From the NCBI RefSeq assembly GCF_009730915.1, contig NC_052471.1, forward strand, positions 30,290,185 to 30,354,184: a stretch of DNA of 64,000 nt. Reading direction: 5' to 3'. The translations under genes were made by a program, and so were the position numbers. How positions within the stretch are numbered: the first letter of the stretch is position 1; every line of letters begins with the position of its first letter. Below the pieces are notes generated by a model. It was not told the origin of the DNA and did not search any database. It was given only the letters and a program-made list of their open reading frames with translations. The stretch comes from Dioscorea cayenensis subsp. rotundata (lineage: Eukaryota > Streptophyta > Magnoliopsida > Dioscoreales > Dioscoreaceae). Of this stretch, positions 13,689-42,761 are shown piece after piece.

Positions 13689-14125
13689 AAGAAATGATCT
13701 ATTATTCTCTCATTTTTCTATATTGCTAGCTATTTCTCTTGGTTTTCTCACATTTGATTTAAAATAAAATATGTAATAGCTGGATTGCATACCATGTAAT
13801 TTGTGTTATTTGTTCAAGTTCTTAATGTGAAGTAGTTTTGGGATATTTAATAATATGTTCGTGAGCGTGTGCGTGTGCGTGTGCGCGTATATACTATATA
13901 TATATAAAGTCCATATCAAACTCGAAGTACGCTCATTATATTCCTTCCAAATTAACTGAGCTCTAGCCTCTAGTGTAGCATTTACTTGAGCAGCAAACGG
14001 GTGAATGTTTTTTTTTTTTTTTTTTAAAAAAAGGAGCTACAATATTGTGTAATGAAGGAAGAGAGCAGGGCGCCAAGGCATATAACTTTAAAACAAAAGC
14101 ACATGCAAGGGAGCATGGTGCCTGC
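13689..14125. other. 3' flank of middle PAL, no further gene
   Basis: AT-rich 3' UTR and polyadenylation region, a GTGTGCGTGTGCG-type run near 13,866-13,887, and a T(18)/A(7) stretch near 14,008-14,032. No gene is supported. Confidence 0.6.
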
Positions 14126-14129
14126 TCAA

Positions 14130-17100
14130 TGGTATTTTTTTTATTTTTTTTGAAAGTGGATAAATCACAGATTTATTGAAATAAAAAACAGAAAACAACA
14201 GCAAACAACTCAGACATACTAAAAAGAAAGAAGAACAAGGGAAAGCAAAACAAAGAGGACACTACACCAGAGGTGTGAAAGTCCATAACCGACGAAATAA
14301 AAAACAACAGGAAAAAACACCAATAGAAGACCCACGATCCGGAGCTGAGGAGACGAAGACCACCAAGAGGCAGTAGAGGTCAGCTCAACAGGACCTAGAA
14401 GAGTCACTCGTGAAGATGTATTGTCGAGCCGCTAGCGAGGTCCGCTGATCTGGCGCTCAAGAAGTCGAGGGAGCGCTTGACAGACTGAATGGAATCACTG
14501 GAAACATGTTGAGTCGAGTCTTTAGCTGCAGAGCACCAATTAATAATCATATGAGAAATTTTAAAAAGAATTGATGCAGTGGAAATGAAGGTAAGATTGA
14601 AAATACGATTGTTCCTTTCCAACCAGGTATTCCAGAAAATTGTTCTGGTAAGAAGGTCTCAGAAAATGCTCACACGCACGTCAAGTGAAGGAATCCAAGT
14701 GGACCAAACCTGCTCGGTAGAATTTGGGAATGAAAGAAGGTTTAGAGTACTCATGAAAAAATCCCAAATTCTCGAGGTAAAGTCACAGTGAATCAGAAGA
14801 TGATCCACAGTTTCTGAGTCTTTAGAACACAAAACGCAGGTGTCCGTCCCAATAAGGGAATTACAGCCTTTCTTAGTGAGATTGGTCAGAGTAAGAATTT
14901 TATTGTCGCTAGCAAGCCAACAAAAGAGAGTGATCTTACTGGGACAGTCCACTTTCCAGAAGGAAGGGTACAGGGGAGTGCGCAAACCACCATCAAAAAG
15001 GAATTTGTCAAAAGATCGAACAGAGAAGTTGCCTTTACTTTCCAAGGTCCAAGTGCTCTTATCCTCTTGAGAAGAAGAACAATCGGGAAGTGATTGTAAA
15101 AGAGGTTGAAGAGCATCCGTAGAGACCTCACTAAAAAAAGATTCGAGGGAAGAGAGGTTCAGAAAAAGATGTCTAATAGTAATCCAGGGTGTCAGGCAGA
15201 TATTAAAAAGGTCATGTAAAATGTCTTTTGGAGCTCGGCCACCAAGCCAGTTGTCGAACCAGAGAAAGGTAGAGGCACCATTGTGTATGGATTTAGAAGT
15301 GCAAGCTCTAAAAGCGGGTAGGATAGGGGTGATGCCAGTCCAGAAAAAGGATTTATTTCTTGGTGGAGAATAAAAGAGAGGACCAGGGGGACCTCTACTC
15401 AAGTAATTTAGGTGAATGATTTTTTACCAACAACCTTGTTGTCCAGTAAAGATTTTCCACCACCATTTGGCGAGAAGAGCATTGTTGAAGGAATGAAGGT
15501 TAAGAATACCCCATCCACCCATACTACGAGGTCGACAAATTCTGTCCCAAGCAACTAGTCGGAGACCTTTGGAACCAAGATCCAGACCCTTCCAAAAAAA
15601 ATCTCTACGGATTTTATCTATCTCCTTAATTACCCAGGATGGTAATTTGAAGACAGACATCCAGTAGGTGGGGATTGATGAAAGAACCAAGTTGAGTAGG
15701 GTCAGATGACCACCAAGAGAAAGGTAAATGGCTTTCCAGGAGGAAAGCTTGGTCTAATCATCGAGGTTAATTTTGTCCAATCATCACGCAAGGGGCGCCT
15801 ACCGGAAATTGGGACACCAAGGTAAGTGAGAGGAAGGTAATTCCTAGCGCAATTTAGAATTGAAGCCAAGGTTGTGTTGGGTTGGTATCCAAAATTGGTT
15901 GAGTAAAGGCAGCTCTTGTTGAAGTTAATGGTAAGACCAGAGGCATCTTCATAAAGGTAGAGAATAAACTTAATAACAAGAAGGTCCTCATTGCCCCCAG
16001 CTGAGAAAATGATGAGATCATCAGCGTATTGAAGGTGACAGATGCTATCATGGGTATCAATGTGAATACCCACGAGAATTCTATTCTGTAGTGCATGCGA
16101 GAACATTGCACTAAGAGTGTCAGCCGCTAGAGCGAATAGGAGGGGGAAGAGGGGATCTCCTTGACGCAAACCACGTTTGCAGCGGATAAATCCGTGAGGC
16201 TCCCTATTTACTAGCACGCGAGCTTTGGAAGTGTGAAGAATGGTAGAGATCCAGGAAATCCAGCGGGGACTAAATCCACGAGCATGAAGAATGTCAAAGA
16301 GGAAGTTCCAATCAAGGGAGTCGAAAGCTTTGGCAAAGTCAACTTTGAAAGCATAACCAAGTACCTTGCTCTTTTGAAGATGAAAAATAAGTTCCTGGGC
16401 AGCGACAATGTTGTCAGCAATACATCTCCCTTTAATAAATGCCGATTGCGAGTCATCAACCAGTGAACTTATCACAGTACTCAGCCTATTGGCTAGAACT
16501 TTGGATAAAATTTTACAGGAAGAATTAATGAGGCTGATGGGGCGGTAATCAGAGAGATTTGCAAGAGAATTGATTTTAGCGACTAGAGCGATATGAATCC
16601 AATTGAGGCGCTCAAGGTTTGCCCTCCCATCAAAGAAATCGTTACAAAGGGAAAACAAGGAATCTTTAAATAAATCCCAGTGTTTATGAAAGAAAAAGAT
16701 GGGGAAACCATCATGGCCGGGGGCTTTGTCAGCGCTTAAGTCAAACACCGCCTGTTTGAGTTCTTCCATGGACAATGGTAAGTCCAGATTTGAGAGATCA
16801 ACTGTATCTCTAAAGTTGAACAAGTGTTGCCAGTCCATAATGAATCGGGAGGATCTAGCAGTTCCAAACAGGAGACCGAAATAATTCGAAAAGTGAATAC
16901 CAAGATTCCGGTTTCCTTCGACCCAAGAGTCATTGATGCGGATTCTAGGAATAAAGTTTTTGTTGCATCTTCCATTAGCAACAGAATGAAAGTATTTGGT
17001 ATTAGAATCACCATATTTGAGCCAAGTGATTCTGGATCGTTGTCGCCAATAGGTTTCCTCATTTCTGAGGATGGTAGAGAAATCCTAACGTAACTGGGTA

Positions 17101-25465: not shown

Positions 25466-28400
25466 CTAAATCTCCCCCGGGGAAGAAGGTCTCGATGACG
25501 GGGCATCCTGCACCACATCTCTGGAACTCAGGAAATCAAGACTCCTCTTTATCTTTGACACAGGTTCCTCAAGTTTCGCCTTTTTAGCTTCAGAGGCTGC
25601 ATCGAACCATGAAATTATCATGCAAATAATCTTTAAAATAATTGCAACAGTCGAAAGGCAATCGGAATTAAAGATACGAGCATTTCTTTCAAGCCAGATA
25701 TTCCAATTAATAGCTCTCACAAGCAAATCCCAAAATGGGATTAGATTTTTAGACAGATTGCTTCTCCAGTTTCCCCAGAGGTCCGAGAGGGATCTAGGGG
25801 AAAGAAAGATCCCAAAAAGTTGTCCAAAAAAATTCCAGATATGCGAGGCGAAGGAGCAATGGAGAAGGAGATGATCAGCCATTTCAATTGCCGCGTGACA
25901 CATCACACAAGTAGCAGAATGAAGGAAATTGCATCTACGCAAAGCTAAGTTATCCAGTGTCAAGATCTTGTAATCCCAGGCAAGCCAGTTGAACAAATTA
26001 ATTTTTTCCGGGCATATGCTTTTCAAGATAATAGGTGACTTGGAACACCTCAACCAGCCGTCATTCAAAAAATTGTAGAAAGATTTGACTAAGAAACTGC
26101 CATTGGCCGTGAGGGACCAACGTTTTTCATCATGCTCCGAAGAGGAAAGCGCAATGGCTCTATTGATAAGAGTGCTCCACTCAGGGGAGTTGCTCAAAGG
26201 AGACACCGAATTGCTGCTCAAATAATCCCGAATCGTGATCTCCCTAAGAGTGGAAAGTTGGAACAAATGAGGCCAGATGTCTGCAGGAGCACGCCCATCC
26301 ACCCAATTCTCCAGCCAAAAGAGCGTGGAAGCCCCATTCCGAGTGATGGAGATTAAATTTTTTCTAAAAGCAGGGAGGGAGTGCAAGATACCATTCCAGA
26401 AGAAGGATCGCCTTCTACAAGGTTTATGGTACAGGTTCCACATTGGGGAGTTCCGATAGTAATTTTCGCGTAGAATATCCTTGCCACACCAACGGGTCTC
26501 AGAAGCAATCTTCCACCACTATTTGCCCAGAAGGGCATTGTTAAAAGTATGTAAATTCAAAATTCCCCAACCTCCTTGCTCTTTAGAACGACACAGTCTA
26601 GTCCAGGAAACCAGTCTTATTTTGCTCTGATGATTGTCCGGTCCTGACCAGAGAAAATCTCTGCGAATCTTATCGATACCCTTAATAACCCAGGAAGGAA
26701 GTTTAAATATCGACATCCAGTAGGTGGGGATGGCAGTAAGCACTGAGTTAATCAGTGTGAGCCTCCCCCCTAGGGATAGTAATTTAGATTTCCAAGAACC
26801 GAGCCTCAGTCGAATTTTGTTAATTAGAATATCCCAATCCTGTCTTCTTAGTCTTCCCCCTGAAATAGGTATGCCGAGATAGGTAATCGGAAGGGAACCA
26901 GAGGCACAATGAATAGTCCTGGCCTGGGAAATAAGAGGAACCTGATTTCTCAGAGCAGCATATAGGCAAGTTTTATCCGAATTTACCTTGAGTTCTGAAA
27001 TGCCCTCAAACATATAGAGAATGAGTTTGATGATTCGCAGATCTTCATCGCCCCCATTAGTAAGTATGAGAAGATCATCAGCATATTGCAGATGACACAT
27101 CTTGATCCCAGAGCCACCAAGGACCACCCCATGAAGAATTCCAGAATTCAGAGCATTGTTAATCATAGCACTAAGAACATCAACCGCAAGAGCAAAGAGG
27201 AGAGGTGAGAGAGGATCTCCCTGTCTTAGACCTCTGCGATATCTGATGTAACCACTTTGGCTGCCATTGATGAGAAATTTCGCTTTGGTAGAGGTAAGAA
27301 TAGAGTTAATCCAACCTATCCATTTATCACTAAAACCCCTAGCATGTAGGAGCTCCAAAAGAAATTCCCAATCCACCGTGTCAAAGGCTTTTGCAAAATC
27401 CACTTTAAGAATCAGTCCAGGGGACCTATGTTTTTGCATATAGAAGATGAGTTCGTTGGCAGTGATAATATTATCAGTGATGCATCTCCCTTTAATGAAT
27501 GCCGACTGGGTCTCATCGATCAAAATGTTGATCTTAGATCTTAGTCTGTTTGCTAAGATTTTGGATATGATTTTAAGGGAGGAGTTAATCAAACTAATTT
27601 GACGAAAATGCGAAGGGTTCTCCGGGCTTTGGTTTATGGGGATAAGAACAATGTTGGCCCAATTGATTCTTTCTAAATTGGCTCTCCCCCAGTAGAAGTC
27701 CTCACAAAGCTTGAAGATGTCGTCCTTGACAATCGCCCAATATTTCTGAAAGAAGAAGATCGGGAAACCATCCGGACCAGGCGCTTTGTCCGCATTTAAG
27801 TCAAAAACTGCCCGTCTAATTTCCTCATGAGTGAAAGGATTGTCAAGTGAAGAGAGGTCGTGCTGGAATTTAGGGCCAAGTAAAAATTGCCAGTTAATTT
27901 TGAAGCGAAAATCTTGAGTTGAGCCACAAAGGTTATGATAGTAGGCAGTGAAGGAATCCCCTATTCTTTTTGTATCCGTGACTCGAATATTGTTATGAGT
28001 AATCCAAGGAATAAAATTCCTGTTCTTCCGACCGTTGGCCACTGAATGAAAAAAACTGGTATTTTCGTCTCCTTCTTGAAGCCAGGATACCCTAGCTCGC
28101 TGCTTCCAGTAAATCTCCTCATGATTGAGGATTTGGAATAACTCTGATCTCAAGGATGAATCTCTGGCAATCTCAACATCAGTGAGGAGGCGAGTTTCTT
28201 TCAAGTTATCCAGGAGATCAATTTCATGCAATAAGGCCAGCTTGTTAAGCTTAATCGAACCAAAATCTGTTTTAGCCCAGTACTTAAGCTGCTTTCTGGT
28301 ATTAGCGATCTTCTTGGCCAGGATGAAGGCCCCACATCCCTGGAAATGATGCGAGCACCACCAGTCCTGATTGTGGTCCTGAAGATGCTCAGCCAAGCAC

Positions 28401-29142
28401 CAAGTTCGTTCAAAGCGGAATGGGCGCTGAACAGGAGAATGATCCCCCGCTTCAAGTCTAATGGGCACATGATCAGAGCTAAGTCTAGGAAGACAATTTT
28501 GAGTAGTTTTGGTGAAAAGCGAAATCCAATGAAGATTGACAAGGAAGCGGTCCATTTAATCCAAATTGGATTGCTTTGACCATTAGTCCAAGTAAAACGC
28601 TTCCCAAACGATGGAGGCTCAACAAGATGGAGGTCCCTAATAAGCATTTGTGCTTGCCTAATGCCATCAAGATTAGGGAAACTATTAGACTTGTCACTAT
28701 GGTTGAAAATGGAATTAAAATCCCCACAGATAACCCTTGGGGCATCCCCTCCAGGCTGGCAAATTCTGATTTCATTCCAAAAGTCAGATTTCAAGTGACG
28801 TGAGTTTGGCCCGTAAACAGTGGTACAGACCCAGCGAACTTCATTGGATTTGCTTCTGAATTCAACATAGAGGCAAAATAAGCCTTGAAAGATCATTTGA
28901 CCCACATGCAAATTATTGTTCCAACCAATAATCATTCCACCCGCAGATCCTAAGGCCGGAGTGTAAACAAATTGGTCAAGACGGGTCCCACCAATAGATC
29001 TCCAAATGGAAGGGTTAATAGAACTAAGTTTGGACTCTTGGATGCAACATATGTCAGCGTGATGAATTTGTAAAAAGTCTCTAACTAGGAAGCGCTTAGA
29101 AGATCTTCCTAAACCCCTAACATTCCAGTTGATAATATTCAT
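25466..29142 (-). pseudogene. LINE ORF2: endonuclease-reverse transcriptase, two lesions
   Basis: Starts at 29,142 with MNIINWNVRGLGR. The AP-type endonuclease shows WNVRGL, IQESK, VYGPN, GDFNSI and later SSDHVPI. Reverse transcriptase (26,519-28,555) shows DKAPGPDGFPIFFF, KVDFAKAFDTVDW, RRGLRQGDPLSPLLFAL and the catalytic LQYADDLLIL. The C-terminal part (25,466-26,443) has the zinc finger CVMCHAAIEMADHLLLHC and WNIWLERNARIFN, typical of plant L1 elements. It would drive target-primed reverse transcription. One base is missing near 28,555 (IWIK, then the frame changes to DRFLVN). A TAG at 26,519-26,521 replaces a codon just after NALLGK, where the family usually has Trp. Both lesions are single-base events. 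Confidence 0.9.
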
Positions 29143-29169
29143 AAGAAAACTAATTAGGACCAGAAGCGG

Positions 29170-30823
29170 AACCTAGACTCGAGGTTCCACCTGAACAAGG
29201 AACAGTCGATCTAATTGATTCAAGCATGCGTAAATGTGATAAGCAATTATCTTTATGGTGCAGCGAATCAAAAGAGATACCACAAGCATTGCAATAATTA
29301 ATTAATTGCAGATCATTCCAGTCATTTATAAGAAGAAGGGTGGAAGAAGTACCTTCCGGAGGCGTGCTAGATGTCCCCTTTTTCTTAGTAGATCTGGGTG
29401 GTTGTGGAATGAATCCTGCTTCCTCATTCCATCTTGAAGATGGTTTCTTCCTACGTTCACTTCGTCTAGTACCCAGGGAGGGGTCCTCCGTTTATCCCGA
29501 TTTGAGCAATCTTTTGACTTTCTCCTCAAAGTCTGATTCTGAGTCGTCCTCCTCCCTACTACCAAGGCTTTCCCCCTCTTGTCCAAATCCGTCCGTCAAC
29601 TGATCAGTAGGATCATGCAGCTTCTCATCTAGGAGATTCTCCTCACTCCATAGTTCCAATTTCTCATGCTGGTTAGGCACATCGTTCAACAAGGAACGAG
29701 AAACAAGTACTTTAGAGAATATGGATGGAACAAGGGTCCATAAGCCATGAAGATAAGTCCACTTGAAATTCGGGGGTGGAGGGAGATTAGAGGGAGGATG
29801 ATCTGGATTACTGTAGCTATCAATTTCCTCTACAACATCCCCACTATCAGATTGGGCCAGATTATGGGAACTAAAGTTGGCGGGTTCCAGAGGAACCTCC
29901 GAAATCAGGCCCACCGGATCAGTTCCAGTTGAGTTAATGGCAAGTTTATCCAATGAGAGGCTTGGCCCAAGAAGAGAAGGCCCAGGTATATGAGTCCCCA
30001 TCTCAGCTCCAGGGACACGAGCAACCTTCTCACACCCAGGATCATTGGCGGGCTCCAAAGGAACAATGGGGCCCAGCAAAGCGTGGCCCAGCAAAGACTG
30101 GTCCGAAGAGCCCAAAGCAAGGCTATCAACATCGGCTGAGGGGCAACCGTCGCATTCTAGGTTAACACGTGGTCCGCCATGGTTGTCCGCCAACAACCTA
30201 GGATCCTCGGCCAATACATGTGCGACAGCGCGATGCTTATCTTGATTATTGTGTAGCGACCGTGCCAAAGCATGCGACGTCGGGGGACCGGAGGATAATA
30301 CCTCTTTCGAGGGGCCATCGGTCCGACGGCATTCCATCCCGGACTCATCCGGTTCTGACCTCCGAAAGCCGGAGATCCCGGGAGCGGAGCTCACCGGACG
30401 AATCCCAGCGTCGAAGTTCAGTGCCCCGGGAGCCATGCTCACCGGCCGGGCTTGTTTTGGAGGCTTCGTAGAGACCCCGGGAGTAGTGCTCTCCGGCCGA
30501 GTCAGAAGTTTCTGTGCTCGAGGCCTCCATGTCTGAGCAGTCTTCTGCGACGCTGGTAGGCGATCGGGAGGTCGTTTATCAGTTCTATCAATCTCCAGTC
30601 CTTGAGCATCCACCACCACCTTCCCCTTAGCATCTCGACCATGATCAGCGGCAGCGATTGATTGATCAGGATTGGATCTCGGTTCGATATCCTCCGGACG
30701 TGGCGAAGAATAAGCATATTTTTCCAGGTCGCGTCGAAACGTCAGGAAAGGAAGTCGATTATCCGTGATGAGAACCACAAACTTGCGCATGCCAAAGCTC
30801 AGAACAATCTCATGTGGAAGCAC
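29170..30823 (-). pseudogene. LINE ORF1 (RNA-binding-type protein), N-terminus missing
   Basis: The open frame 30,823-29,492 is rich in Pro, Ser and Asp and lacks the N-terminal DUF4283-like domain usual in plant LINE ORF1. It starts without an ATG at the element's 5' edge. It contains imperfect repeats of the type RPxSxxPG (around 30,400-30,530). After a frameshift near 29,490 the frame continues to about 29,170, with a Cys-x2-Cys and His/Cys cluster (YCNACGISFDSLHHKDNC) like the zinc knuckle expected at the end of ORF1. The product would coat LINE RNA. The call rests on position before ORF2 and on the Cys cluster, not on strong sequence identity. Confidence 0.6.
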
Positions 30824-30852
30824 AACATGATGGCGACACCGAAATCAGCACA

Positions 30853-31655: not shown

Positions 31656-31663
31656 ATGGTTAT

Positions 31664-31850
31664 TAGGGCTGTTCAAAAAAACCGGTTAAACCGTAAACCG
31701 GACCGGACCGGTTTTATTTGAACCGCCGGTCCGGTTCCAACCGGTTTCATTATTAACCGGTCCGGTCCGGTTTTGGAACCGGTTCCAAACCGGTCCGGTC
31801 CGGTTCCAGTTTTCGGAACCGCGGTCCAAACCGGACCGGACCGGTTTATG
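31664..31850. repeat. 5' TIR and CCGGTCC subterminal repeats of the hAT
   Basis: TIR TAGGGCTGTTCA followed by a dense cluster of CCGGTCCGGT and its complement in both orientations. Such subterminal clusters are transposase-binding sites in characterised hAT elements. That role is inferred here. Confidence 0.85.
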
Positions 31851-32837
31851 TATAAATCTAAAATCTGTAAATATATTTATTATGTTATATGGTTTTTTAC
31901 TTTTTACTTTTTAGGTTTTATAAATTTATACTTTTCAGTTTTCAGTTTTCACCGGTTCAGAAGCCTCAGAGAGCAAAAACTAAAAAGTAAAAGCTCTTCT
32001 CAATGTTCTCATTTCTCAGAGTTCTCTGCCTCCGAAACCAAGGGACCGACTGACCGAGACTTCGAATCTCCGGCTCCGCCACTCAGCCTCCGGCCTCTCC
32101 CAGTCTCCCTGATCCCTCTCACTCTCCTCCGCGATCGCTCTCTGGTCTTTCTCTACCCCTCTCGCTCTCTCTCTCTTTCTTCAAAGTTGAAGATTTCGAT
32201 CGAAAGGTATCTTTTGACTCTTGATTGTGTTCTTTTCTTTTCTCGATGATTGATTTAGTACTGAATGGGTTATTGTTACAATCGACGGATGATTCGAGGA
32301 TTTCCGCTTGTTTTTGGTTTAGTTTGGTGTTTTGGCGATTGGCTTTGGTTAAAGCAATTTAGGTTGGGGACTTAGGGTTTTGCCTTTTTGGTGATCGATC
32401 CAAGCTTGATCTTCTGTTTGTGTTTAGTGTTTAGTGATGGTGATTCACCGATTTTTCAGATTTTGTTTACTGTTTAGTGTTTACTGTTTATGATTTATTG
32501 TTTTCTATATTCATTGAAAGTTTAAAATGCATTCTCTTGGACCTTATCACCTTTTCTCTTTTCTATAATCTTTTCTTCTCTTAATCATTAAAGAAAAGAA
32601 TGGAATGCAGGCAATTGGTTGGAAACTTGGAAGTTGGAACTACATGTGGTATTGTTTTGGTAGATTATTTACTCATTCTAATTTCTAGGTATCATGTATA
32701 ATTCTGAATTTCTGACTAATCCAATTAAATTTGCAATGTTTCCACTTTACTTCTTTGGACTGGTCATTGTACCACTATGTTGCTGTCTAATTTCTAATTT
32801 CTAACTTGATTGTTTTATAATTGGTTTAGCAAACTTG

Positions 32838-34752
32838 ATGGCTGAAGAAAATCAAGTTACATCTAGAAATGTAACAGAGACAGCGTCAAGTGTTGTTTCA
32901 AGAAAGAGAAAATCTTCTTTGCGTTCCGATGTTTGGGAAGATTTCAAAGAAATAGAAGGGACTGATAGGGTTGAATGTAAACACTGCAAGAAGAATTATA
33001 AGTGTGATAAGAGCAAAAATGGCACTAGTACTTTGCGTAAGCATATAGGAAAGTGCACGAAGAACCCAAATAATGATAGCAAAAGCCAAAAAACTCTAGC
33101 CTTTGACAAGGTAGATGGAACTGATGGTAAGTTGGTGACCGTGAATTTTGATCCTAAAGTTTGTAGAATGGCTTGTGCCGAGTACATAGTGTGCGGGGAG
33201 CTACCATTTAGGCATGTTGAAAATGTGGCATTCAAGGCATTTTGTTTCAAGCTACAACCTAAGTTTAAGCCACCATCTCGGGCAACTGTGGCTAGAGATT
33301 GTTACCAACTGTACTTGGACATGAAGACAAAATTGTGTAAGAGTATGAAGAAGCATAGAGTTTCCTTGACCACAGACACTTGGAGATCCATTCAGAATAT
33401 CAACTATATGTGTGTCACAGCGCATTTTATTGACAAGGGTTAGGTTTTGCATAAGAGAATCATCAACTTTTTTCAAGTTCCAAATCACAAGGGGGAGACC
33501 ATTAGTAGAGAGCTTGAGACATGCATGCGGGAATGGAAGATCAAAAAACTATGCTCTATCACAGTTGATAATGCATCGTCTAATGATGCGACGACTAAAG
33601 CAGATTTGAGGAGGAAATTGTGTTATGCTACAAGTTCTATTGTTTTGGAGCCAAAAATTTCTACACTTAAGATGTGGTGCTCACATCATCAATTTGATTG
33701 TGAATGAAGGTTTGAAGGAGATCGAGAAGTCTGTTTCTTCCATAAGGCTTGCTTGCAAATTTGTGCGGTCTTCAACAGTGAGACAACATTTATTTGAAGA
33801 ATGTTGTGAAAGAGAAAAAATTGAAACAAAAGCCTTATTGTGTTTAGATGTGGCCACTAGGTGGAATTCAACCTATCTTATGTTGGATACAGCAATAAGA
33901 TTCCAAAAGGCATTTGATGGGATGGTTGGCGATGGGAATTATGATAATTATTTCATAGAAGAAGATCAACAACCACCTACTGATGATGATTGGGAGCATG
34001 CAAGGGAATATACAGAGTTTCTGAAGACTTTTTATATGGCTACTAAAAAGTTTAGTGGGTCATCATATACAACATCAAACTTATTTCTTCCAGAAATATT
34101 TGATATTTCCCAAAAGTTGGATAAGATGATAAATCAACCAGATGAGAATCCCACACATTGTATGATGGCTATTAGAATGAAGCAAAAGTTTGACAAGTAT
34201 TGGGGGGATGCAGAGAAAATTAGTGATGTGTTGTTTGTGGCTTTTGTTCTTGATCCAAGGTTCAAGTTCAAATTACTTAGACATTTTTATGCTAAATGTC
34301 GAAAACCACAAGATTATATTGAAGCTTTGTGCCAAAAAATTGAGAAGTTGCTTAAAGGATTTGTTCAAACTTGTATAACAAAGAAAAATCCACGATCCTC
34401 AAATGATAAGCAAAAATACACAAAAGTGCTCCGATTGAAGTTGAGGAACAAGAATCGATCTTTTTGGCTTGAATATGCGAGATCTCAAGACTCTTCATCA
34501 AGTAAGCATGAAGTCGATAAATACTTGAATGATAGTTGTGAACCATACACTCTGCAATTTGATATTCTCGGTTGGTGGAGGTTGAATGGTCACAAGTACC
34601 CAATCTTGTCGCATAGCTCGGGAGTTATTAAGTGTTCAAGTTTCTACAGTTTCTTCTGAATCTGCCTTTTCTGGTGGTGGTAGAATTCTTGATTCATTTA
34701 GGAGTTCTTTACATCCAAGGATGGTTGAGACGTTGATGTGTTCGCGTGATTG
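32838..34752 (+). pseudogene. hAT transposase (BED finger, RNase H-like fold, hATC), inactivated
   Basis: Starts at ATG 32,838, just after a probable intron acceptor at 32,829. The BED zinc finger (CKHCKKNY, then LRKHIGKC) is at about residues 47-75. TTDTWRS, VDNASSND, CGAHIINLIVNEG and DVATRWNSTY mark the catalytic domain in the usual order. The C-terminal dimerisation domain shows DILGWWRLNGHKYP and, in another frame, VSSESAFSGGGRILD. Breaks are TAG at 33,441-33,443 (probably from a Trp codon, since the same frame continues), a frameshift near 33,670 and a second near 34,615. It is related to the Ac-like and plant SLEEPER-type BED proteins. Its intact relatives cut and paste elements with 8-bp target duplications, matching the element ends here. 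Confidence 0.92.
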
Positions 34753-35195
34753 AGTTTGCTTGCCATTGCGTCTTCCACCTATTATAGGCACGAAGAATGC
34801 AGGAGAAGAGTTGGACAACTTATTGCATTCTCAAACAATTTTTGGCGAGGTTATTTTTCAAAACCTCATTCTTATTTATTTTATAATTTTGTTTACTAAA
34901 CTTTTTAAACTTGTTGTTTTTCTTCCCTGCTTATAACAATTTTTCAGAAATGGACGCTTAATGTCAACCGTTCACATTCACTTGGGGAACAATTACCTTC
35001 CATAATCTCGAAGAGGATGATAGTGAAGGGGACTCGCATTAATCTTTGTTGTGTTGTGTTTGCTCTAGCTATTTTCTTGTGGACTTCACCTATGCTTTCT
35101 GAATTTTTCCAGCATTATGAGTTTGTGGTTGTGTGGGCTTGATTCATCAGCATATCTAATGAATTTTCATCAAGGATTGAAGTTCATCAATTCAT

Positions 35196-35255
35196 TGTAT
35201 TTTCAAGGATCACATCCGAGATTTTCTTGTGCAATCAGAAGAATTTTCTGCACAG
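35196..35255 (+). pseudogene. Captured exon fragment resembling exportin-1 (XPO1/CRM1) C-terminus
   Basis: The frame reads FKDHIRDFLVQSEEFSAQ, closely matching the C-terminal segment of plant exportin-1, the nuclear export receptor. It ends at CAG followed by GTATG, a good splice donor. It lies inside the hAT element in the same orientation as the transposase. No other exportin exon is visible nearby. Confidence 0.75.
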
Positions 35256-35313
35256 GTATGTTTATCATGTTACTTCTCTCTGTGGTTTATTAGTCTATCT
35301 AATGAATTTGCAG

Positions 35314-35409
35314 GTTATATTAGCTACAAACATTGCTGAGACATCAGTAACAATCCATGGAATCAAATATGTTGTTGATCCTGGATTGGTCAAGGCCCGA
35401 AATATTTGA
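35314..35409 (+). pseudogene. Captured DEAH-box RNA helicase exon fragment (first copy)
   Basis: Preceded by an acceptor (TTTGCAG) at 35,307-35,313, the frame reads VILATNIAETSVTI, then GIKYVVDPGLVKAR and a stop. This is the ATNIAETS motif region of spliceosomal DEAH-box helicases (Prp2/16/22 family). The reading phase at the acceptor is 0, the same as the upstream exportin-like donor, so splicing would join the two in frame. Confidence 0.82.
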
Positions 35410-36156
35410 AATCAGGAATTCTTTATGATTAATGTTCTCATGACTATTTTAAATGTCATTACATTCGAAAAGTGTAAAGCATAGTGTATATTTACTTCCT
35501 GTTGGTTTGTTTAGACATTATGAATCCTGTTTTCTGAAATCTATTTTGTCTGGAATTGTATAATAATCACCTAGTACAGGGAGGATGTCTCTGTTGAGTC
35601 TGGTTTGTGTCATTTCTTTGATCAGTGTTTTGAATTAGTGTTGTCCCAGAATTACATAAAACTTGGTGTTCATTTATTTTTCATAATTAATTAGCTTCTA
35701 AAAAGGAAAAACATTTTATGTTTCCTTTTTTGTTATTCTAGGGAAACATATGATGTTTGGAAAGCTTTATTTTCTGGGTGTGAATCAAATTTGACAAATT
35801 ATGTTGTTAAGTCTATTGCTTCATTTGGGTGTGGTTGATAATATTTTTGCAGTTTTGTGAGTGCCTATGAAACCTATATATTGACTCGATGACATATTTC
35901 TATCTATCATAATATTTCTTGTTCTCTTTAAATTTCCTTTTAAGTGATGTTGCAAATTTCGAGAGTCACTTGAACTAAAAGCAATCTCGATTGTAATATA
36001 AAGTTCTAAAGATAAGCCCCAGCTTTGTGACTATCTTTGTTTACTAAGTATTTGAATAAGACCTCATAAAATGTTTAGTTATTCTCTTCGATAATCATTT
36101 GAAGGCTTAAAACTTGTCGTCACTATGATTTGTGTTACTGTGTATACTGGGTACTG

Positions 36157-36444
36157 AAGTCACTCGGAGTGAGCATCTTGGGAAGTTTGATCCTAGCTTC
36201 GAGGAACCCGAGGAGTTGAAATGTGTGCAACTCGTGGAATTTGATAGTCGATGAGAATCGCCATTACATACTGTTGATGAAGTTGTTCCATTGAAGTCAC
36301 ACATTGTGAAGTACCCAATTTCGGTGAAGGATAATGGTGATGTTGAACCTCTTCCTGGCTGGGTCTTATTCCCTGATGTTGGTGGCAAAGTTCTACAGCA
36401 GCCTTCCTCCTTTTCTACTTCCCTTCCTTCCGAATTAACAACGT
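36157..36444 (+). pseudogene. Captured phospholipase D C-terminal fragment
   Basis: The translation runs from TEVTRSEHLGKF to a natural end, ELTT plus stop at 36,442-36,444. Within it are EELKCVQLV, HIVKYPISVKDNGDV, PLPGW and FPDVGGKVL, matching the C-terminal tail of plant phospholipase D (beta/gamma/delta type), which ends in LTT. A frameshift around 36,230-36,280 breaks the middle. The catalytic HKD motifs are not included. Confidence 0.75.
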
Positions 36445-36801
36445 AATGCATCATTGATTCACTGCATGAACAGGCTCTCACCCAAATTTATTTCGCTTGC
36501 TGATTGTGATTTATTAGTGTTCTCGAAGTGGTTGTGGCAAATGTGATTTGATTATAAAGTATTTATCATTATCGGAGTGGATTTGTGTGGATTTTATTGT
36601 AATTTGTGGAAGTTTATGTTGGATTTATAATACAAACCAAGCTCATATATGTAAAATGTAAATCAATTTCAGAAATTTGCGGTGCCACTCTGATGAAATG
36701 CATTTGCCTGTTTTTGTTTCAGAATGAGAAGATACCATGAATGGTAGCTTCACAGTCACTAGCTTGTATTCCTGTTGTGCAGCGTTTGGTGGATCAGAAT
36801 C

Positions 36802-36858
36802 GTTGATCCTGGATTGGTTAAGGCCCGTTCATACAATCCAGTTACAGGAATGGATAAC
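36802..36858 (+). pseudogene. Captured DEAH-box RNA helicase fragment (second copy)
   Basis: The frame reads VDPGLVKARSYNPVTGMDNL, which continues the helicase exon past the point where the first copy stops. The first 26 bp repeat 35,374-35,399 with a single mismatch. The two pieces therefore derive from one exon, separated by about 1.4 kb that includes the phospholipase D fragment. Confidence 0.78.
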
Positions 36859-36939
36859 TTAGTGTTCTTTCGAACTAGCTCATTTCATTTTCTAGTGATT
36901 TGACATATATGGATATGGATATGGATATGGTTGAGGCCT

Positions 36940-37151
36940 TTTACTGAACTGGACCGGACCGGACCGGACCAAACTGGTCCAAACGGTCCAAACCGGAACC
37001 GGACCGGACCGGACCGGTTCAAAACGGTTTGGACCGGTCCGGGTTTCTCTGTTATTTGGTCCGGTCCGGTCCCAATAATAAAAAAACCGTTTAACCGGTC
37101 CGGTCCGGTTTTGGACCGGTCCGGTCCGGTTTTGGACCGTGCACAGCCCTA
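36940..37151. repeat. 3' TIR and GGACCGG subterminal repeats of the hAT
   Basis: Mirror of the 5' end: dense GGACCGG/CCGGTCC clusters, then TGCACAGCCCTA, the inverted complement of the 5' TIR with one mismatch. Confidence 0.85.
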
Positions 37152-37159
37152 ATGGTTAT

Positions 37160-37884: not shown

Positions 37885-38265
37885 TACACCAAAAGAGGGC
37901 TTTTGAGCCGGTTTTCAAGACTCACTTGATCTAACAGTTTAGTTCCCTTTAAGACGATTTTAACCGCTATAGATATAACTTTGATTTTTTCACACACCCT
38001 AAACCATCTCATATCAAGCTGGCTATGCACTTTAGAGCAGATTTATATCAACCGTTGGGGTAATTTTTATTCCGCCTCTATATCTAAAAATTTTTTATCC
38101 CTCCCAAAAAGTTTTAGAGGCGGTTATAACCACATCTATACCTAATAATTTCTTATCCCTCAATAATTTTAGAATTGATTATATATAATCATCTCTAAAA
38201 CTATTATTTTTCTAACATGTTCATATTTTAGAGGCGGTTATAACCACCTCTAAATTTGTAAAATT
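37885..38265. repeat. CACTA-like terminal and subterminal repeat block
   Basis: Starts with ACTACACCAAAAGAGGGC, similar to CACTA transposon ends. It then has repeated near-palindromes around TAGAGGCGGTTATAACC at 38,116-38,132 and 38,230-38,246, with partial copies between. The partner end was not found. Assignment is tentative. Confidence 0.45.
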
Positions 38266-39918: not shown

Positions 39919-41285
39919 TTATGGGCTTAGCCCCATTCCCCTCGACGCCTCGGCTATCATTTGTCTCGATAAGCCTTTAGTCAGGCAATCTGCTAGATTT
40001 AGCTTTGACTTTATGTAATCAATACTCACAACGTTGTGCTTCAGATGTCTCCATACTGACTTGTGGCGGATCCGCATATGCCTGTTCATTTTATCGTTAG
40101 TACTTTCACGTTTGCACAATTCAATAGCAGATTTAGAATCACAATGTATAGCAATAGGAGGTATAGGAGAACACATAACAGGAATCTCAGAAAGTAAATT
40201 TCTAATCCACTCAGCCTCTGTACATGTGATAGGAGTATCCTCAATCATGAAGGTGACAAAATCATCACCTAGGTTCCTTTCTACTCTACCTCTCTTGCTT
40301 CTTCTAGGTTCCTGAACATGAATAGGAACTGATCCAGAAGCAGAACTAGAGGTAAAAGGGACAGAAGGACTGGGATTGGAGGCTGATCTCAGAGGGAAGA
40401 TGTTCTCAAAGTATACAGCATCTCTAGCTTCAATGATGGTGTTTCTAGTTATTTCACTCACCTCTGAGTTAATAACTAGGAATCTTCCAACATTGCTATC
40501 TAGAGCATACCCTACAAACACTGCATCTAAGGTTTTAGGGCCTATCTTTCGGGTTCTAAGATTAGGGATCTTAACCTTAGCTAGACACCCCCACACTTTG
40601 AAGTAGTTGAGCTGTGGGGCTCTTCCTTTCCAAAGTTCATAGGGTGTTGAGCTACGGTCCTTAAAAGGAATCCTATTTTGGATAAAACAAGCTGAGAGCA
40701 AAGCCTCCCCCCACAAGTTCTCGGGTACACCAGAACTTAATAGCATGGCATTTACCATGTCCATCAATGTCTTGTTTTTCCTTTCAGCAACCCCATTGGA
40801 CTCAGGAGTGTAAGGAGCAGTAAACTCATGCACAATCCCGTTCTGTTCACAGAATGAAGACATAGCATTAGAAGTATACTCTCCACCTCTATTAGATCTA
40901 AGAACCTTAACGGTCTTGCCTAGCTGGTTCTCAGCTTCGGCTTTGAAAATCATGAACTTGCTAAGGGCTTCATCTTTGGATTTGATCAGATAGGTATAGC
41001 AGAATTGGGAATGATCATCGATAAAGGTAATGAAATAACGGTTTCCCGCTCTGGTGGGAGGTCTATAAGAATCACAAATATCACTGTGGATCAAATCAAG
41101 AACTTCAGAATTACGGTGAATGCGAGGAAAAGGTTTCTTGGGTAATTTGGCTTGAACACGAGTTTGACATTTAGAAACTTGATCAATCTTGGATTTAGGG
41201 AATCGAGTTCAAGGTTCATCAACCTTCTAATGGATCCAAAGTTTATATGACCCAATCTTCCATGCCAAAACATCGGAAGATTCAA
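39919..41285 (-). pseudogene. copia pol: integrase joined directly to RNase H, reverse transcriptase deleted
   Basis: From 41,285 the pre-integrase zinc-binding remnant (FWHGRLGHINFGSIRRLM) leads, after frameshifts, into a 391-residue open frame (41,094-39,919). That frame contains the integrase core: FIDDHSQF, RSNRGGEY, ESNGVAERKN, LWGEA. The second catalytic position reads Asn where the family has Asp (usually SD.GGEY). After FMIEDTPITCTEA the protein passes straight to EWIRNLL and the RNase H segment (IHCDSKSAIELCK, HMRIRHKSVW, KLNLADCLTKGL). The whole reverse transcriptase is missing, yet the frame stays open across the junction. It cannot support its own retrotransposition. Confidence 0.9.
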
Positions 41286-41487
41286 TATTTAAGACAACGA
41301 AGAAGAAGAAAGATAATCGAACTTTCATTGATAGATAAATTAGAAGGTTCACATACATTGAGCTTCAGAGCAGTCACCACGGATACAAAAACCTTTACCA
41401 ACAAAAAGATTACTCCTGGAGATTACAAGACAGTTTGACTCAAGTACAATCTTATAACCTGGGATCGAATCAAAAGGGAACCAATAA

Positions 41488-42761
41488 TTAGATTTTTTTC
41501 CTAATGTCTTTGTACATATCGAACGCTCTAACGAGTGAGAACTTTTCGCATGTCATCTTCAAATCAATCCGTCCTCTCCCTAACACGTGTGCTACTGAGC
41601 CATTTCCAAGAGTCACACATCCTCCACTTGAGACCTGATAAGTGGAGAACCAGAAACGGTCAGTGCAAACGTGGACGTTAGCACCAAAATCAAGGAACCA
41701 CTCTAGGTTTTGACAAGTCAAATTGACAGAAGGAATGAAAGATACTGACCTAAAGAATGTCCCAGAGGAGGGTTCACCCATCTCAAGTACATTTACTTGC
41801 GGTTTGGGTGGACCGGAGTTTTTGCTGACAGGTTCAGTCTTACGGAAGAAGCAATCACGAGCAACATGGTTTGTCTTACCACAAACAAAACAGTGTTTAG
41901 GACTTTTCTCATAAGGTTTAGAAGTAGAAGATTTGGGTTGCTGAGAGGTTTGAGAACGAGAATGGGTTGGCTTGCCCTTGGCCTTAAAGGATTTCCCTTT
42001 AGGGAAAAACTGACGACCTCTATCAGAAGAGTGGGAATTCCTAGAGCTTTTAGAGCTATTAGGGCTATCACTATGTTCAGCTAGATAAACCCGGCCTTTA
42101 GGAGGATCTACACCCTTAGAGAAGATTCGGTTGGCTTCCTTAATTCTAATGGTGTTGTAAACTCCTACAAGGTCCAAGGAATCAATCTTGTGTCTAAGTT
42201 CATTTGCAAAGCCTGACCAAGAAGGTGGTAGCTTGTTCAGGAGAATGGACACAATGTGGCTCTCATTGTACGCATGCCACACTTCTCTATGGCACTAAGG
42301 TAGTCCCTGAAAGGTGTGAATCGTTCTCCCATCTCTACTCGCTCTACCATCTTGTAGTTTTCAAACTCTATGCTCAGGTGGCTAATCCTAGTAGCATTAT
42401 CAGGGCCATACTCCTTTTCTATGGCACTCCATATATCCTTAGCAGTCTTATAATCAAAGTATTTGTCATAAAAGGCGATCGGAAAAGAATGCTAAGAATT
42501 CTATGCGGCAGAGTGGAAAATCGATCTCTTGAGAGTTTTTACTAGGAGTTAAGGAGCTAGATGTTTGGTCTCGATCGAGATGGATAATCGGCGAAGTCCA
42601 CTAGGGATCAAGATCGAGGAATCAGAATCAGAGGATAGAGTAAGAGCTGTGGATACTCCTAAGGTGTACAACCAAAATTCAGCCTGATGTTTCCACCTCC
42701 TAAAGTTCACCTTCACCGTCAAACTTCGCAGCGGGTTTACCGAAAGTATCGAGTTGTGCAT
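41488..42761 (-). pseudogene. copia gag and protease, degenerate
   Basis: The N-terminal gag piece is at 42,761-42,549 (NFRRWKHQAEFWLYTLG). The main frame at 42,282-41,488 has LNKLPPSWSGFANELRH, a basic Ser-rich linker and a CCHC zinc knuckle (CFVCGKTNHVARDC, about residues 130-143). The protease motif is WFLDFGANVHVC; copia proteases have Asp-Ser-Gly here, so the Ser is replaced. Frame breaks near 42,290-42,550 separate the two parts. Confidence 0.85.

Follow-up and report, generated by a model that had tools for sequence, protein, structure and literature searches.

How does a hAT transposon come to hold pieces of three unrelated host genes downstream of its own transposase gene? The question is raised by an element in a 64,000-nucleotide stretch of the yam genome (C1:30290185-30354184, hereafter the window), for which a first-pass annotation had proposed a multi-gene capture that also keeps a transposase. 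The 584-Mb genome (2,249 contigs) was searched, and the window copy of the element was compared with three cargo-bearing sister copies, E021, E022 and E023. In our judgement it is highly probable that the locus is a Pack-type hAT in which the non-coding part 3′ of the transposase was remade in three rounds, each with DNA copied from an unlinked host gene. The proposal of three unrelated host genes is borne out by donors on contigs C8, C18 and C2; the capture was sequential and nested and did not take place in a single event.

The whole element is 5,488 bp long (31664..37151, plus strand), has the TIRs TAGGGCTGT and ACAGCCCTA with CCGGT-rich subterminal repeats, and is flanked by the perfect 8-bp target-site duplication (TSD) ATGGTTAT at 31656..31663 on the left and 37152..37159 on the right. 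Its native right end with the subterminal repeats (36951..37151, plus strand) is common to cargo-free copies. The transposase gene is present on the plus strand in two open pieces: 32838..33443, which carries a BED zinc finger (Pfam zf-BED, E 3.2e-6) and ends at an in-frame stop, and 33610..34659, which lies in a different frame and matches hAT-like_RNase-H (E 2e-21) and Dimer_Tnp_hAT (E 1.2e-5). These three Pfam matches above cut-off, to the BED finger, the RNase-H fold and the hAT dimerisation region, together with the 8-bp TSD and short TIR, place the element in the hAT superfamily. The gene had been described as kept, and it is, in broken form: no full-length transposase frame occurs in any of the eight hAT copies examined (8/8), the longest having 520 codons (E022). 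Helitrons have neither TIR nor TSD, and membership in that group was rejected for an element with a TIR and an 8-bp TSD. Pack-MULE membership was rejected as well, the TSD being 8 bp and the transposase hAT; Pack-MULE TSDs measure 9-11 bp according to the text available from one report (PMC3310237).

Other features of the window include a LINE-like element on the minus strand (26519-30844), in which reverse transcriptase (RVT_1) and endonuclease (Exo_endo_phos) matches fall in different frames; its third frame (29495-30844) gave no Pfam match. Remnants like those of an LTR retrotransposon, also on the minus strand (39919-42294), match integrase core, SH3-like, Pol_BBD and zinc knuckle domains. 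A 26-nt sequence near TTTAGAGGCGGTTATAACCACCTCTA is repeated at 38113-38254, both directly and in inverted form, and is perhaps part of another small transposon.

The search of the same genome yielded one close donor for each piece of cargo: the XPO1 (exportin-1) gene on C8, a DEAH-box helicase gene on C18 and a phospholipase D (PLD) gene on C2. Host gene fragments thus lie between the TIRs and their donor loci lie elsewhere (C8, C18, C2), as is characteristic of Pack-TYPE elements (Pack-hATs). Introns included, the donors cover 35195-36918 of the window except for 15 bases. All captured pieces are on the plus strand. The first is the XPO1 piece (35195..35277; 97.6% to the C8 gene over 83 bp), which consists of the exon end FKDHIRDFLVQSEEFSAQ and the beginning of the next intron; the 20 residues of 35196-35255 match exportin-1/CRM1 PDB chains, weakly when taken alone (9/9 matches, E 0.02-0.044). 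It is followed by helicase piece 1 (35283..35399; 95.7% to the C18 gene over 117 bp), an intron end plus part of an exon; 35314-35406 matches 58 distinct PDB sequences at E<=0.01, the best being PRP2 (4.8e-8). The identity of the helicase piece in the window copy rests on such PDB matches to PRP2, DHX8 and relatives. The largest piece is the 3′ part of PLD (35407..36798; 94.7% to the C2 gene), comprising the last intron, the last coding exon and 3′ non-coding DNA; its stretch 36258-36443 matches Pfam PLD_C (E 3e-12) and, in one PDB match, PLD alpha 1 (E 3.3e-5). A whole-genome PLD search gave three matches: the window, the C2 donor and the sister copy on C16. Helicase piece 2 (36802..36918; C18 gene) agrees with the donor at 98% over 36802-36854 and at 90% over 36851-36918. 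It opens with 26 nt already present at the end of helicase piece 1, and it has a 49-bp deletion that is common to the window copy, E021 and E022. Upstream of all these, a short filler similar to the end of the intron that precedes the helicase exon occupies 35154..35166 (plus strand), where E022 and E023 have other sequence.

The first-pass annotation had placed exportin-1 at 35,196-35,255, the DEAH-box helicase at 35,314-35,409 and 36,802-36,858, and the PLD C-terminus at 36,157-36,444, all in one orientation with intron-like DNA between them. The gene assignments and the common orientation agree with our results, and the coordinates describe the coding parts; they understate the extent of the captured DNA, which is longer, the DNA between the coding parts being donor intron and 3′ non-coding DNA. 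Protein searches, which it had named as a possible source of refutation, matched all three families (PDB, Pfam), and aligning the interior to the genome, which it had recommended, provided donor loci and capture breakpoints.

Beside the parts matching the cargo, the donor stretches contain further open pieces of the same genes. Six donor exon pieces were scanned against Pfam: the PLD piece matches PLD_C and three XPO1 pieces match CRM1_C, while one helicase piece matches Helicase_C only below the curated cut-off and the other has no match. Since introns are present within the cargo, the template was genomic DNA, and since the donor genes are still in place, the cargo was copied and not cut. 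Three other candidate donors were less similar and were rejected. An XPO1 relative on C237 (90%) does not match the 3′ part that was captured; C3:11977002 has a disrupted relative of the helicase gene (84%; 94% over 54 bp), and C6:20474125 a further DEAH gene (82% over 76 bp). The C3:11977002 region (L049) is ~84% identical to the helicase donor over 1.4 kb and matches the cargo copies in the helicase part only.

Ten further loci were read, three of them extended; nine have long stretches of the element backbone, and L034 matches only from window position 35108 onward. Donor positions for XPO1, helicase and PLD are given below as coordinates of stitched donor stretches. Five of five cargo-free loci (L024-L027 and L034) have 527-529 bp of native DNA at the capture site, and the partial copies L032 and L033 showed no cargo match. 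In one cargo-free copy, L027, 40 bp match the XPO1 donor stretch (85%, E 2.7e-4) at a place that does not belong to the captured part; this match is taken as chance in AT-rich DNA.

From left to right, E021 (on C16) reads XPO1 13931-13849, helicase 14712-14828, PLD, helicase 14803-14855, helicase 14905-15416, XPO1 13050-12860 and the native end, that is, XPO1[helicase[PLD]helicase]XPO1. The window copy is alike and is without the outer right part: at that place E021 has a further ~740 bp, made up of a helicase 3′ part and an XPO1 3′ part, and the corresponding deletion junction, specific to the window copy, lies at 36943..36944. E021 in turn is without PLD 13767-14513, the gap being occupied by a 29-bp helicase filler. 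E022 (C3:5.6 Mb) begins with the same XPO1 piece as E021 and continues with helicase 14712-14828, then 14343-14855 and 14905-14939; no PLD match was found in it. Its XPO1 3′ part was not found, a scan of ~9.9 kb beyond the cargo allowing one mismatch gave no right terminus, and with the right end missing no TSD was found. As the right XPO1 part and native end were not found, the nest in E022 is open on that side, the left XPO1/helicase border being the one that was found. E023 (C3:15.16 Mb) has a longer donor-collinear stretch of XPO1 (13953->12860) and no helicase or PLD match inside the element. Three insertions interrupt the XPO1 piece of E023 (~C3:15160240-15163075); their overlaps of 8-9 bp resemble target duplications and are of the kind expected from later transposon insertions. 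The flank of E023 also aligns with the helicase donor stretch over 155 columns at 68%; neither the element nor the captured part is involved in this match.

From these arrangements the order of capture can be read as XPO1, then helicase replacing part of XPO1, then PLD inside helicase. E023 has XPO1 sequence (donor 13848-13051) that was not found in E021, E022 or the window copy, and E022 has helicase sequence (14343-14802) that was not found in E021 or the window copy; both are continuous with their neighbours in donor order. The order follows because no deletion could bring donor sequence back in its original succession. Furthermore, E021 and E023 have in common the XPO1 3′ junction, with about two dozen filler bases before the native sequence, so XPO1 was captured once; the 49-bp helicase deletion common to all three helicase-bearing copies likewise means that the helicase was captured once. 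Given an E022-like ancestor, PLD probably replaced helicase 14343-14802 (~0.46 kb); alternatively, PLD was inserted into a simpler helicase piece and duplicated 26 bp of it. The window copy/E021 pair and E022 have the five bases AAATA in common following helicase 14828, which might be a relic of the E022-like state. This run is short and the PLD donor could supply part of it, and the order is therefore not based on it.

A tree of the backbone (31664-35112, 9 rows) joins the window copy, E021 and E022 with 100/100 support, and these with E023 again with 100/100. It agrees with the first two capture steps and does not resolve the branching of the window copy, E021 and E022. The suggested grouping of the window copy with E021 rests on common cargo features; a single substitution in the helicase exon, as well as the filler that precedes XPO1, occurs in these two and not in E022.

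The long-block identities to the donors, gaps counted, are 86% for XPO1 (E023), 88% (E021) and 90% (E022) for the helicase, and 95% (window copy) and 98% (E021) for PLD, and this increase from XPO1 through helicase to PLD fits the proposed order. The substitution distances are 0.054 for XPO1 in E023 (915 sites), 0.035-0.053 for the helicase (117 sites), and 0.017 (E021, 608 sites) and 0.032 (window copy, 1,362 sites) for PLD. For the 83-bp XPO1 block the distance to the donor is only 0.025, as compared to 0.035-0.053 for the 117-bp helicase block, so short blocks alone do not give the order.

Capture junctions have matches of 0-4 bp or short fillers, some of them copied from nearby. A TATT match is found at the XPO1 5′ end; starting from the arrangement in E023, a short deletion at this match could produce the XPO1 5′ border of the window copy. 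The ends of the 49-bp helicase deletion have a TGGA match.

The cargo has moved together with the element. Perfect 8-bp TSDs flank the window copy (ATGGTTAT), E021 (ATTGTTAG) and E023 (GTTCTGTT), and all are different; three cargo copies at different sites with three different TSDs mean that the cargo was mobilised, which is the second characteristic of a Pack-hAT. Since the PLD cargo is common to the window copy and E021 at different sites, the element moved after the third capture. Later nested insertion of the donor-like sequence, which the earlier annotation had raised against its own reading, is at odds with the fact that sister copies share the cargo while E021 and E023 have TSDs of their own. 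The transposase behind the movement may have been provided in trans, or may still have been intact then.

The XPO1 capture also left a trace in much shorter elements. With the 3′ cargo of E021 as a query, at least 35 loci match over XPO1 tail, filler and native junction, a lower bound because 40 of 137 candidates were scored. Six of these short derivatives (L056-L061) were read; all six are 498-523 bp long with a perfect 8-bp TSD, and all six retain the XPO1 capture scar. They are built of element bases 1 to ~185, the XPO1 tail, the same filler as in E021 and E023, and the native right end. Their XPO1 tail reaches donor position 15642 (donor sense coordinates), past the stop codon, and cargo-free copies match this tail only in and beside its TA-repeat part. 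Being short and present in many copies, with the TIR and TSD of the parent, the derivatives are MITEs. The shared scar leads us to infer that one internal deletion of an XPO1-bearing element founded the ~500-bp MITE family. A tree of the first 185 nt (14 copies) does not place the MITEs, none of its 11 inner branches being starred.

How, then, could three unlinked genes have entered one element? In the first step, 1.1 kb copied from the XPO1 gene took the place of ~530 bp of native sequence. In the second, ~0.8 kb within the XPO1 piece gave way to DNA of the DEAH-helicase gene, and in the third, 1.37 kb of the PLD 3′ end entered the helicase piece, probably replacing ~0.46 kb. The element transposed together with its cargo; separately, an internal deletion keeping the XPO1 scar would have given rise to the ~500-bp MITE family. 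Behind each step may lie a double-strand break in the element, whose repair drew on an ectopic template for DNA synthesis and involved template switching. The captures lie 3′ of the transposase, and the transposase region and the element ends were left in place. Break repair in the non-coding 3′ part, copying unlinked genes, is the most likely capture mechanism. It has been suggested that capture may stem from replication errors in the repair of excision breaks (PMC3260210, as far as its available text goes), and the accessible part of another report argues for gap filling or fork switching (PMC8277862).

Fork switching during replication is a possible, though rather doubtful, route for the yam element too. 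The inverted CCGGT subterminal repeats could stall forks, the helicase piece of E022 jumps back within one donor from 14828 to 14343, and such a model is proposed, in the part of the report available, for multicopy animal Pack-TIRs (PMC8277862). However, the junctions alone cannot separate this route from break repair, and end resection accounts no less well for the deletions seen at each step.

A ready-made three-gene chimera captured at once, parts of which were later lost by E022 and E023, would explain why the window copy and E021 have nearly the whole arrangement in common. It would have E023 and E022 regain by loss what loss cannot restore, namely XPO1 13848-13051 and helicase 14343-14802, which extend beyond what the other copies hold; short of two gene conversions from the donor genes, the copies contradict it, and we consider it very improbable. 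Very improbable, too, is end bypass or neighbouring insertion, in which hAT ends flanking a gene are mobilised together. Mobilisation by neighbouring insertions is a route proposed for plant Pack-TYPE elements in the text seen of one study (PMC8903248), and end bypass is named in that of another (PMC8277862). Yet when the whole element was compared, at a minimum match length of 40 bp, with the four donor stretches L028-L031, each 8.5-9.5 kb long, they matched in cargo segments only, with no element ends. The original ends and transposase stayed in place, and the donors are on C8, C18 and C2 whereas the cargo-bearing elements are on C1, C16 and C3. The capture series argues for internal repair as against the mobilising of neighbouring ends. 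Finally, a Helitron or Pack-MULE that brought the three pieces into the hAT later, attractive in that multiple independent pieces with introns are usual cargo of such elements (for Pack-MULEs, see the available part of PMC8277862), is scarcely credible, because 527-529 bp of native hAT DNA are missing at the site and not duplicated, the cargo borders inspected by eye have neither target duplication nor terminal structure, and the stepwise build-up through E023, E022 and E021 contradicts it, E023 most directly.

Within the preferred reading of successive break repair, one may go further and suppose that the 3′ part is a standing capture pocket, repeatedly broken and refilled from unlinked genes while the transposase region and the two ends remain where they are, in which each refill becomes the next breakage site, and from which the XPO1 tail was amplified as a MITE. 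This extension is speculative, and we hold it to be unlikely. If it were true, host gene 3′ DNA would have been spread genome-wide in tens of copies.

One and the same genome retains copies without cargo, all three donor genes, two intermediate states and the final one. Because these stages are kept together, each capture can be given a direction, and one can read from the copies what was lost, what was gained and how the junction was formed in sequence. In addition, a captured host fragment passed into a multi-copy MITE family. How cut-and-paste transposons acquire fragments was called unknown or not yet understood in 2011 and 2012 (PMC3260210, PMC3310237), and the origin of Pack-MULEs was called perplexing in an abstract of 2021 (PMC8277862), as worded in the portions of these papers available. 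The main text of a 2026 review of plant gene capture has no word beginning hAT. In the open-access literature searched, partly in excerpt, no nested, ordered capture series in a hAT was found described, which is not proof of absence.

Capture by a hAT beside its transposase, taken at first for a rarity, is less unusual than supposed and already known from grapevine. Hatvine-6, reported in 2008, comprises hATs with a common transposase and variable genic exons and introns (PMC2528002). Judged by its description in the accessible text, it resembles the yam element in the common transposase and TIRs and in variable regions matching genic exons and introns; it differs in that no nested order or intermediate copies are given there.

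The maize Pack-hATs have, like the yam element, hAT TIRs, an 8-bp TSD and host coding DNA between the ends. In the part of the study available, however, Pack-TYPE elements are defined as non-autonomous, whereas the yam element retains a broken transposase gene, and its cargo comes from three donors and is nested (PMC8903248). The maize elements Ds2 and Ds-l4, of which 2 and 9 are reported, respectively, are hATs with an intron-containing genic filler copied from another chromosome. According to the report on them, as far as available, Ds2 lost much of the Ac interior and the Ds-l4 elements share little beyond the TIR, while the yam capture sits 3′ of a still-present transposase gene (PMC3260210).

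The animal Pack-TIRs are comparable in that DNA was copied ectopically into the interior of TIR elements, in many cases with short microhomology. Of 370 such elements, 208 are hAT; gap-filling and FoSTeST models were put forward for them, and one hAT Pack-TIR amplified to three sites with distinct TSDs, as stated in the available portion of the report (PMC8277862). In contrast to these animal cases, the yam element is a plant hAT with three unlinked donors used in succession and with a MITE family that carries the scar of the first capture.
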